Assembly: GCF_008807075.1 (NCBI RefSeq)
Contig: NZ_CP035632.1
Location: 2,728,001 to 2,792,000 of the forward strand
Direction of reading: 5' to 3'
Origin: Synechococcus sp. RSCCF101
GTDB taxonomy: Bacteria > Cyanobacteriota > Cyanobacteriia > PCC-6307 > Cyanobiaceae
Length of the DNA: 64,000 bases
The notes under the pieces are model-generated. The model saw only the letters and a list, made by a program, of their open reading frames with translations, was not told where the DNA came from and did no database searches. Below are positions 20,029 through 23,522 of this stretch, piece after piece; within the stretch, counting starts at the first letter, position 1, and each line of letters begins with the position of its first letter. Made by a program: the position numbers and the translations under genes.

Positions 20029-20907
20029 GTGAGCGAAACAGGCGAGGCTTCAGTCGGAGGGCTTGTTGGTAACAAGCTCTACCAAAGGCGCGCTCGACAA
20101 GCGCTACCAATTCTCGTCAGGCAGGCCAAGGCCAGACAAACAATTCTCTACAGTCAGCTCGCGTCTGAGCTAAGGATCTCAAACCCCCGCACGCTGAACT
20201 GGCCGCTAGGTGCAATTGGGAATGAAATGCTGGCGCTTGCAAGCAAGTGGGGATGCAAAGTGCCGCCGATTCAAGCTTTAGTTGTAAGCAAAGCCTCTGG
20301 CTTGCCAGGAGATGGGATCTCATGGTTTGCGCCTGATGCAGCAAGGTTCAAGGCTGCAGCTAATTCAGTACGCAGGCAGATTGTGGATACGATGCTGTTC
20401 GAGGTTTACGAGTTCAATCGTTGGGATGAGGTGCTGAGGGCCTACGATTTAAGCCCGCTACCCCCATTAAGTGATGGCCTGCCAGGTGTCAGCGAAATAT
20501 TCTCCACAACTGGACATGACGAGGGAGAAGGCGATGAGCACCGCCGCCTCAAGATTGCCGTTGCTGGTCACCCTGAGTGGCTCGGCCTCCCTCAATCGCT
20601 TGGCAAAGGCAAGATGGAGTTCTCTCTTTACTCTGCAGATCGAGTAGACATCGTGTTCTCGGATGATCGACACCAAATCGCAGTTGAAATCAAGCCTGAA
20701 GGCGCGTCACTAGCAGATTTGGTAAGAGGGGTCTTCCAGTGCGTGAAATATGAGGCGGTGTTGCGTGCCGAAGAAGCCATGAAGCAAGGGCGAAGAGAAT
20801 GCTCATCAATTCTTGTGCTTGGAGGTTTGATTCCACCGCAGATTGTCTCTCTTAAGCTGGTACTTGGTGTGGATGTTAGAGATGAAATTGCCAAGTGCGG
20901 GATCTAG
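20029..20907 (+). CDS. predicted PD-(D/E)xK nuclease-like protein
   Basis: 292 residues from a GTG at 20029, chosen because GAGG lies seven bases upstream. The C-terminal half has an apparent PD-(D/E)xK core: Glu in DEHRRLKIAV near 180, Asp in DRVDIVFSDD near 210, ExK in AVEIKPEG near 225 and a RecB-like QxxxY in FQCVKYEAV. The N-terminal half (KARQTILYSQLASEL, then GAIGNEMLAL) looks like a small helical, perhaps winged-helix, domain. No named family is recognised. GC is about 50 percent against about 70 percent in hoxH, so recent transfer is likely. The next gene encodes an EVE-HNH nuclease of the same composition, which suggests a joint defence role. Confidence 0.6.
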   Translation: MSETGEASVGGLVGNKLYQRRARQALPILVRQAKARQTILYSQLASELRISNPRTLNWPLGAIGNEMLALASKWGCKVPPIQALVVSKASGLPGDGISWFAPDAARFKAAANSVRRQIVDTMLFEVYEFNRWDEVLRAYDLSPLPPLSDGLPGVSEIFSTTGHDEGEGDEHRRLKIAVAGHPEWLGLPQSLGKGKMEFSLYSADRVDIVFSDDRHQIAVEIKPEGASLADLVRGVFQCVKYEAVLRAEEAMKQGRRECSSILVLGGLIPPQIVSLKLVLGVDVRDEIAKCGI

Positions 20908-21001
20908 CATCGAGATTCGGCGAGCGGGGCTGACATGCGCGATGACTGCCGCCTTGAGCTGCTTCCCGCCGCTGAGCTTAAGTCTTGTCAGCTACTAAAC
21001 C

Positions 21002-21814
21002 ATGAGTGCATACCTCCTGACCTGGAAACCATCCGAATGGGCCGAAGAGAAACTTGATGAGTACATCAGTGAGTTTCGTTCCGGCCAGAACGAGCAGCGG
21101 TGGAGTTGCGGCGGCACGAAGAATATTCCTAATGGCTCCCGGTTCTTCCTGATGCGTCAGGGGTCTGGATTAACGGGCTTATTCGGTTCAGGGGAAGTTG
21201 TTCGCGAGCCGTTTGCCGATGACCATTACAACGAAGCTAAGCGGCTTGAGGGAAAGAAGGCCAACTACGTCATGGTGCGCTTTGATCGGTTATTCGATCC
21301 GACCTCTGGAATTAAGATCACTCCTGACGAGTTTAAGCGGTTTCATCCGTCTTTGTGGCGGTCTCAGGGATCAGGGAAATCCATACCACTTGATGTCGCG
21401 GTACAGATTGAACGACTATGGTCGGAGAGGTGCGGAGACTATTCCCTTCCATATGCAGATGAGCTGCTTGAGGGATTGACTTATTCAGAGGGAACCAAGA
21501 AGCAGGTCACAGTCAATGCCTATGAGCGAGATCCAAGAGCAAGGGACAGGTGCATCGGCAGATGGGGGCATAGTTGCAGTGTTTGTGGCTTCCATTTTCA
21601 GAGCTTTTATGGCGAACTAGGAAAGGGCTATATCCACGTGCATCATTTAAAGCCTTTGTTAGAGATTGGGGAGGAATACAAAGTTGATCCTATTATCGAC
21701 CTTCGCCCGGTTTGTCCAAACTGCCATGCAATGCTTCATCGCGGGAAGTCAGTCCTGTCGATTAAAGAACTGAAATCCTTGATTATAAGTTGCGGTGGGG
21801 AAGGCCGCGACTAG
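21002..21814 (+). CDS. EVE-like domain plus HNH endonuclease (candidate modification-dependent restriction enzyme)
   Basis: 270 residues. Residues about 1-135 resemble an EVE domain (YLLTWKPSEW, then RFFLMRQGSGLTGLFGSGEV), a fold that reads modified bases such as 5-methylcytosine. Residues about 175-255 form a McrA-type HNH nuclease with two zinc CxxC pairs (CSVC, CPNC) and catalytic HVHHLKPL. EVE-HNH fusions are known type IV, modification-dependent restriction enzymes, so defence against modified phage DNA is likely. GC is about 48-50 percent, matching the gene before it and unlike the surroundings. A two-stem hairpin follows the gene. Confidence 0.78.
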   Translation: MSAYLLTWKPSEWAEEKLDEYISEFRSGQNEQRWSCGGTKNIPNGSRFFLMRQGSGLTGLFGSGEVVREPFADDHYNEAKRLEGKKANYVMVRFDRLFDPTSGIKITPDEFKRFHPSLWRSQGSGKSIPLDVAVQIERLWSERCGDYSLPYADELLEGLTYSEGTKKQVTVNAYERDPRARDRCIGRWGHSCSVCGFHFQSFYGELGKGYIHVHHLKPLLEIGEEYKVDPIIDLRPVCPNCHAMLHRGKSVLSIKELKSLIISCGGEGRD

Positions 21815-21864
21815 CCAATCGCGCAGCAGGGTGTATTTGACCCTCTAGGCGGTTTAGTTGCCGG

Positions 21865-21904
21865 AAAGCCTTCGTCACCTTGACGACTGGTGAGCTCAGG
21901 CTTT
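21865..21904. terminator. bidirectional hairpin terminator
   Basis: AAAGCCT (21865-21871) pairs with AGGCTTT (21898-21904), and an inner TCACC/GGTGA stem strengthens the fold. The outer arms end in TTT on both strands. It lies between the EVE-HNH gene and the convergent FAD enzyme gene, overlapping the latter's stop codon, so it can serve both. Confidence 0.6.
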
Positions 21905-23522
21905 AATCGTCCAACCAAGGCAGCTTCAGCCCCAAAGCCTCAATCGGATCCATCACCAGCTTGTTCAGTGCCCGGCCCAGAATCACCTGCGGTTCATCGG
22001 GGCGAATCGGGATCACGGCATGCTGAGCGGAGACCGTTGTGCCCGTGCCGCTGACGATCCCGCGCCGGATCAGGGAGTTGGCCGCTTCCAGGCCGCACAC
22101 ATAGGCGCGTTCCTGACACAGGCCTTTGGCGCCATGTTCCCGCTCGCCCATCCGCACCCAGTCACCGGCGCAGACGATCGTCTCTGCTGAGCTCTCCAGC
22201 GGCGGCCGCTTGTGGAAACTGCCGGGCGAGAAGAGCGACACCGAGCCTGGATAGCGGCGGACCTCGGAATCCAGCACCCTGGCAGCCCGGAAGTCTGGAT
22301 GGGCCGTGGGCAGCAGGTTGTGCATCAGTCGATCGATGATGGCCTCATCGCTCAGCGTTGCAATTGTCGTTGTGTTGTAGAAGTCGCTGGCGATCACGGA
22401 ACCCTGGGGTTCATCGCCGCCCCAGAGCTCTCGCTCCCATCCCTTCTGCAGCTGGTCGAGCATGAAGAAGGTGCCGCCTGCTCCCTCAAGCGATTCAAAG
22501 CGCGAGAACACATTGGCCGGGTGGGCGACCGGCACGTAGCGGTCCAGCCACAGGCGCGTGGACACGACATCGATCGAGCCGAGCGATGCGGCAGCGCTCA
22601 GCTCGGGCACCGCCGCGCTGCAGTCCGGTGATTCAGCCAGCAGCGACCGGAGGCCTTTGGCTCCCACGGCCAGCACCACGGCGTCCACATCATCCAGGCT
22701 CTCGACTTCGTTGGTGGTCGTGTTCTTCAGCTCAACCGAGGTGATGGCCTTCGTCGCCGGGGAAACGTTCAGCCGGGTCACCAGGGTTCCTCCCAGCACC
22801 CGGAGCTGATGCTGTGCGATCAGCCTCTGGCTCAGGGGTTGAAACAGGTGTTCCGCAATGCTCTTCGATCGGATCCAGCGGACATCGAACGAGTCCTGAT
22901 GGGCCAGGGCGTAGTAGTAGAGGAGCTCCATCGTCACCGCGGCTGAGAGCTCTTCGGGTGGCTTGAACAGGCCCACCAGCAGGGTTGGCCTGAGGAAATC
23001 ATTGATCAGTCGTTCACTGATGCCCAGCCTGGTGAAGAGCGACTGTGCCGTCAGCGCGTCGTAGTCCTCGAAGACCTCCTCGCTCCGGTACAGATCGAGC
23101 ATCGCGTAGAGAAGCCCGGCGATGGTGAGGCGATCCTGAATCGGGAGGCGCTTGAAGTGTTCGATCGTGGCCACCATCTGGCCCAGGGGACTGGGCCACT
23201 GCGGTGAGGCCCCGAACACAGGAGCAGTGGCTTCCAGCCCATCGGGAGACCAGAACGCGCTGCTGGTGAAGTCCGTGAAGATGCCGTCCAGCCCCAGTTC
23301 GTCGGTGAGGGCATTGATGTTGGGATAGTCCTTCCAGAACCCTCTGGTTCCCGCCTCGAAGGGCTTGCCGCTTGCGGTTGTGACTGGCTGGCGGCCGGTC
23401 GGATCGGCCATCCCATCAACCAGGGTCACGCGAACCCCCGCCTCGCAGAGGGCCTTGGCGGCGCCCCAGCCCGCCCAGCCGGCTCCGATCACGACCACAT
23501 GCGATGGGCTGCTGGAGGTCAT
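21903..23522 (-). CDS. FAD-dependent amine oxidase/phytoene dehydrogenase-like oxidoreductase
   Basis: 539 residues from the ATG at 23522. It opens with the dinucleotide-binding motif VVVIGAGWAGWGAAKALCEAG and an acidic strand end (VTLVDGMAD), followed by GTRGFWKDYPN. A second flavin-binding block lies near the C-terminus (CAGDWVRMGEREHGAKGLCQERAYVCGLEAA, residues about 460-495). This is the amine oxidase/carotenoid desaturase fold. The substrate is not evident. The sequence around the start (23514-23531) is identical over 18 bp to that of the deacetylase gene. It is divergent from selO with about 270 bp between; that gap shows no gene. Confidence 0.8.
   Translation of the reverse strand: MTSSSPSHVVVIGAGWAGWGAAKALCEAGVRVTLVDGMADPTGRQPVTTASGKPFEAGTRGFWKDYPNINALTDELGLDGIFTDFTSSAFWSPDGLEATAPVFGASPQWPSPLGQMVATIEHFKRLPIQDRLTIAGLLYAMLDLYRSEEVFEDYDALTAQSLFTRLGISERLINDFLRPTLLVGLFKPPEELSAAVTMELLYYYALAHQDSFDVRWIRSKSIAEHLFQPLSQRLIAQHQLRVLGGTLVTRLNVSPATKAITSVELKNTTTNEVESLDDVDAVVLAVGAKGLRSLLAESPDCSAAVPELSAAASLGSIDVVSTRLWLDRYVPVAHPANVFSRFESLEGAGGTFFMLDQLQKGWERELWGGDEPQGSVIASDFYNTTTIATLSDEAIIDRLMHNLLPTAHPDFRAARVLDSEVRRYPGSVSLFSPGSFHKRPPLESSAETIVCAGDWVRMGEREHGAKGLCQERAYVCGLEAANSLIRRGIVSGTGTTVSAQHAVIPIRPDEPQVILGRALNKLVMDPIEALGLKLPWLDD

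Follow-up and report, generated by a model that had tools for sequence, protein, structure and literature searches.

EVE-HNH endonucleases such as VcaM4I, TspA15I and CmeDI (PMC7897488; EVE census, PMC7641849) are encoded by single genes and measure about 270-310 aa, with an N-terminal EVE domain and a C-terminal HNH nuclease. The EVE domain of VcaM4I flips 5mC/5hmC, and enzymes of this type act alone (PMC7897488). Other type IV enzymes, namely DpnI and the wH fusion endonucleases (PMC11037411), join a winged-helix sensor to a nuclease within one gene. Integrons have been reported to hold many unrecognised anti-phage genes in studies cited in PMC12444791 (Darracq 2025, Getz 2025, Kieffer 2025). 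Here we describe a low-GC segment of a Synechococcus genome in which two neighbouring genes recall these systems. Gene 2 resembles the EVE-HNH endonucleases in domain order, size and single-gene format, and gene 1 likewise combines a putative winged-helix-like sensor with a nuclease in one gene, although the domain order is reversed relative to DpnI (sensor, then PD-(D/E)xK), to which it is likened in architecture. We consider it probable that the segment consists of two separately mobile, self-sufficient restriction-type nucleases, EVE-HNH gene 2 and sensor-nuclease gene 1, that are adjacent by happenstance.

The segment lies within the window, the whole 64,000-nucleotide stretch of DNA that was analysed, and comprises the following features:

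20029..20907, + strand: gene 1 (P0001), predicted 292-aa nuclease of an uncatalogued family; intact open reading frame, GTG start
20065..20415, + strand: gene 1 N-terminal winged-helix-like region, residues about 13-129; high-confidence model
20524..20904, + strand: gene 1 predicted PD-(D/E)xK domain, residues 166-292; fold match and invariant residues
20527-20529 (E167), 20647-20649 (D207), 20686-20688 (E220) and 20692-20694 (K222), + strand: gene 1 catalytic candidates, invariant
20737-20751, + strand: gene 1 QC-x-KY motif, invariant in 65 aligned homologues
20908..21001, no strand: intergenic spacer of 94 bases, gene 1 to gene 2
21002..21814, + strand: gene 2 (P0002), predicted 270-aa EVE-HNH endonuclease; intact open reading frame, ATG start
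21002..21427, + strand: gene 2 EVE-like, putative modified-base-sensing domain, residues 1-142; aligns with the EVE domain of orthologue L123
21575..21742, + strand: gene 2 HNH nuclease core; Pfam match at residues 192-247, alignment with EcoKMcrA (6ghc)
21815..21902 (folded stretch 21815-21905), no strand: two short hairpins 3' of gene 2, without a T-run

The two genes are bounded by hoxH and a convergent oxidoreductase gene, and a GAGGA sequence stands just 5' of the GTG start of gene 1. The original prediction of a low-GC, same-strand gene couple next to DNA of about 70% GC toward hoxH is confirmed in coordinates and composition: GC content is 52.7% in gene 1 and 50.1% in gene 2 against 68.7% in hoxH and 63.7% in the gene after the island, and the 1-kb windows with the lowest GC anywhere in the 64 kb fall at gene 1/gene 2 (minimum 0.503; median 0.696, or 69.6%). 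The segment is of foreign origin by compositional and phyletic signs, and gene 1 shows signs of horizontal gain, namely its anomalous GC and its occurrence in 386 cyanobacterial genomes as a single copy, that of the window itself. PsaA and PsaB are encoded on the same 2.98-Mb contig, in keeping with a cyanobacterial host. The gene downstream of the island is found in one close relative only (L150; 71% identity). Within the spacer between the genes, we found neither a promoter match nor a recognisable attC. The two-stem terminator proposed at the 3' end held up in part: two hairpins are present, and the 21815-21905 stretch folds somewhat better than its shuffled versions (z -2.0; equal or better in 10/200 shuffles), but a T-run is absent and a terminator scan 3' of gene 2 returned nothing. 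An 8-base inverted repeat, ACTAAACC / GGTTTAGT, brackets gene 2 at 20994-21001 and 21851-21858; it may be a chance occurrence.

Judged by its architecture, gene 2 is a predicted EVE-HNH modification-dependent (type IV) restriction enzyme, in agreement with the initial EVE plus HNH assignment. Its C-terminal part (residues 192-247) matches the Pfam HNH family PF01844 above the cut-off (25.4 bits vs 21.4), and PADLOC identifies the protein as mREase_IV (7.8e-8). The HNH core residues are C192-x2-C195, C238-x2-C241, H214/H215, N240 and H246, and the two cysteine pairs are probable zinc ligands. Pfam gave no direct EVE match for gene 2 itself; a second cyanobacterium, however, encodes an orthologue (L123; 44% identity across 265 aa) that exceeds the Pfam cut-offs for both EVE (PF01878, 24.1 bits vs 23) and HNH, and the N-terminal part of gene 2 has a weak profile match to the EVE structure 2eve. 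Additionally, the EVE-like domain is homologous to domains inside AAA ATPases encoded on Sinorhizobium and Fuscovulum plasmids, where the ATPase genes directly precede a gene annotated as 'restriction endonuclease' in a McrBC-like arrangement. It also makes up the N-terminal part of an HNH protein from Gluconobacter whose gene lies near helicase and DNA methyltransferase genes. A search of viral contigs with an EVE-HNH alignment gave no match. Compared with VcaM4I, which the sequence search from gene 2 did not reach, the HNH part of gene 2 is closest by sequence, among solved structures, to EcoKMcrA. By analogy with VcaM4I, the EVE domain of gene 2 would flip and read modified cytosine and an HNH dimer would cut the DNA, giving the enzyme its presumed restriction activity.

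Gene 1 had no match in Pfam, PADLOC, NCBIfam, PDB sequences or PHROGs. An AlphaFold model built from a homologue alignment of 65 rows reached a pLDDT of 93.5 and contains an alpha-beta core with D...(D/E)xK plus a helix-A acid, as the PD-(D/E)xK superfamily demands. In VIA-align, this model was closest to NucS/EndoMS (2vld_B, Z 13.3; 5gke_A, Z 12.9), followed by XisH, Can2/Card1 and others, in a match list that covers the nuclease domain only (residues 168-292). Gene 1 thus shares with NucS/EndoMS the C-terminal PD-(D/E)xK core, over 107-110 aligned residues at Z 13 and with no PDB sequence match. Invariant in the 65 homologues are E167, H171, K175, D207, E220, K222, R233, G234, Q237, C238, K240 and Y241. 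Fold and conserved active site together identify the modelled gene 1 product as a PD-(D/E)xK nuclease, and because the invariant residues E167, H171, K175, D207, E220, K222, Q237, K240 and Y241 fit an intact active site, it is very probably a working one, with DNA as its likely substrate. These results bear out the prediction of a PD-(D/E)xK nuclease of no known family, and the best reading is that gene 1 represents a new family, uncatalogued in the libraries searched. The proposal of two different foreign nucleases side by side is upheld as well.

The N-terminal region of gene 1 bears a suggestive resemblance, which we think probably genuine, to the DNA-binding domain of MGMT/ATL proteins (PF01035). 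Its conserved motifs (Y41-x2-LA, NPR, P79-[PH]-[IL]-[QN] and P93-G-x-G, with Y41, G61 and P93 invariant) follow an order near that of the MGMT/ATL winged helix, with which it appears to share the Y-x2-LA helix and the G-x-PG turn. A local hhalign comparison with MGMT scored 32.7 (E 2.7e-5; 74% over 18 columns), whereas none of 60 column-shuffled controls exceeded 19.1. Among the weak matches of the gene 1 family, PF01035 turns up more often than any other non-nuclease domain (4/65 members, best 0.018). Foldseek with the gene 1 model lists MGMTs at probabilities of 0.57-0.77 and low TM-scores, and the region folded alone, without an alignment, reached a pLDDT of 43. Unlike MGMT/ATL proteins, gene 1 has P-[PH]-[IL]-[QN] in place of P-C-H-R, and its N-terminal domain is fused to a nuclease. 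Provided that the motifs are correctly aligned, position 80, which corresponds to the acceptor cysteine of MGMT, is occupied by P, H, L, Q and other residues and by cysteine in 0/65 members; gene 1 would therefore not be an active alkyltransferase, which carries the acceptor cysteine in PCHR. Proteins consisting of the gene 1 N-terminal domain only are encoded at L007:5758-6396, near a DNA methyltransferase gene, and at L008:5809-6480, adjoining an exonuclease-domain gene. In two Bacteroidota relatives (L083:5497-6795 and L088:5554-6804), a 150-aa N-terminal extra domain looked PUA/EVE-like by eye; we rejected an EVE fusion, as Pfam, PDB and hhalign gave no support.

A search of genome contigs with the single gene 1 sequence gave no match, whereas a four-sequence alignment recovered relatives on at least 153 contigs. 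Relatives are also encoded on 7 plasmids and 9 viral contigs, and none was found among phage records. The family extends over Pseudomonadota, Bacteroidota, Planctomycetota, Chloroflexota, Myxococcota, Thermodesulfobacteriota and Poribacteria, and three copies are broken (L081, L085, L094). Among the immediate same-strand neighbours (n=87), any given Pfam family occurs at most three times, and gene 1 is therefore mostly solitary, with varied neighbours. In five loci (L023, L025, L036, L073 and L089, the last comprising the downstream part only), a gene-1 relative is flanked, in an order that is conserved, by a type ISP/IIG restriction-methyltransferase gene (with SNF2 helicase) on one side and by an AIPR-like gene on the other, possibly as a multi-gene system that includes the gene-1 nuclease. 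Other relatives neighbour a type III RM system with Shedu nearby, type I HsdM and GmrSD_N protein genes, and two Abi genes. As a raw tally read without a random-gene baseline, these neighbours fit a defence role, which remains the likeliest function, as originally supposed. In Methylobacterium, the same 250-300-aa protein, belonging to no Pfam family, is encoded immediately after gene 1 in two loci (L002:6883-7791, L055:6883-7626). One plasmid labelled Lactiplantibacillus plantarum (L004, NZ_CP110863.1) has 64% GC and alphaproteobacterial-looking genes and is probably contamination.

The gene-1 family is repeatedly carried as single-gene integron cassettes. With a stop-anchored attC score, for which shuffled flanks served as calibration, we detected an attC directly after the stop codon in 9/91 family genes, each at p<0.001 (L012, L019, L028, L033, L037, L043, L052, L081, L094), and the relative in L012 sits inside an array of nine attC repeats. 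Furthermore, attC-like sites follow neighbouring genes in L046, L048, L051 and L096, and attC-like ends were recognised by eye in L035 and L049. An unanchored attC scan hardly exceeded chance (34 vs 24 in shuffles) and was dropped. On the gene-1 tree, the cassette label changes 6 times, at least 4 of them forced by well-supported branches, against a shuffled mean of 12.0. In one clade of close relatives with short branches, 8/10 rows lie in arrays, and this cassette-rich clade spans Gamma- and Betaproteobacteria and Thermodesulfobacteriota, that is, two phyla. The spread of the clade across phyla, together with the forced tree changes, thus indicates that integrons carry the family between phyla and that uptake occurred more than once. 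These relatives are similar to the integron-borne anti-phage cassettes reported in the studies cited in PMC12444791 in being single-gene cassettes that end in attC, whereas the window copy is no recognisable cassette. Because integrons are reported there to hold many unrecognised anti-phage genes, we regard defence as the leading hypothesis for gene 1.

Could the two genes form one system, as originally proposed? The search for the two side by side in other genomes, set beforehand as the test of the pair, came out against it. A tblastn search of gene 2 against 97 gene-1 loci found the window's own locus only, plus a weak 65-residue match in L056 that belongs to a divergently transcribed MTaX1-HNH_2 protein; this match aside, a gene-2 homologue is absent from the examined flanks in all 96 remaining loci of the gene-1 family. 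Conversely, the gene-1 profile found the window's own member only in the gene-2-related loci fetched, of which the cyanobacterial ones were examined with ~1.5 kb flanks, and the best gene-2 orthologue, in L123, stands without gene 1 over that distance. We therefore rejected the couple as a recurrent system, since gene 1 and gene 2 did not recur together in unrelated genomes among the loci compared. A dedicated two-component anti-phage system, in which the EVE-HNH enzyme recognises phage DNA that carries modifications and the PD-(D/E)xK protein finishes degrading it, would agree with the shared strand, the 94-base spacing, the common low GC and the nuclease nature of both products. It is nevertheless very unlikely, given that no second locus among those compared contains both genes, that each family usually occurs without the other, and that VcaM4I and similar EVE-HNH enzymes work on their own (PMC7897488). 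Their adjacency in this genome could still be locally functional. The frequent cassette state of the gene-1 family raises another account of the neighbourhood, in which two single-gene cassettes were captured in series and the resulting array, which has no integrase, has since decayed. The same genome does contain an integron-integrase remnant, a 58-aa C-terminal fragment at G000:C1:390515-391007 (L156:1501-1993; TIGR02249 best, 73.7 bits vs 42.8 for XerD). An attC-like site lies 3' of this fragment, as does a long open frame without an NCBIfam match. However, this remnant at 390.5-391.0 kb lies about 630 kb away with the contig taken as a circle, window gene 1 falls outside the cassette-rich clade, and the stop-anchored search gave no attC candidate after either window gene, neither 3' flank reaching a significant score (PWM p 0.07-0.26). 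We thus rejected the window genes as integron cassettes and find a decayed array distinctly improbable.

The fold of gene 1 also bears on its function. NucS/EndoMS proteins are its best fold matches and its N-terminus resembles MGMT/ATL repair proteins, as would be expected if gene 1 served DNA repair and not defence, travelling on mobile DNA as a nuclease that either acts like NucS/EndoMS or incises alkylation damage. Yet NucS/EndoMS is a housekeeping gene, whereas gene 1 is mobile, patchy and solitary; its single copy in cyanobacteria, the integron cassettes, the restriction-gene neighbours and the broken copies all make a repair function unlikely. In the preferred reading of two self-sufficient nucleases, gene 1 would be a stand-alone sensor-nuclease, whose N-terminal winged helix, probably of the MGMT/ATL kind without the acceptor cysteine, would present modified, alkylated or odd DNA to the C-terminal PD-(D/E)xK nuclease. 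Such sensing of modified bases is inferred, and the anti-phage role of both genes is likewise a presumption. A bolder version, which we offer tentatively and think possible rather than probable, makes gene 1 the founder of a new class of restriction enzyme that depends on modifications or lesions in its target. Its base-reading winged helix, derived from MGMT/ATL and lacking the acceptor cysteine, would direct the PD-(D/E)xK nuclease to altered bases in phage DNA, and the gene would move from phylum to phylum as a single-gene integron defence cassette.

Gene 2 extends the known EVE-HNH type IV enzymes by a member from a cyanobacterium. The gene 1 family is widespread, mostly solitary, mobile and repeatedly packed into integrons, yet it is unmodelled in the domain and defence libraries searched. 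If gene 1 restricts phages, it would add a single-gene type of defence, one that may use a base-reading domain taken over from DNA repair, and would provide a further link between integrons and anti-phage defence.
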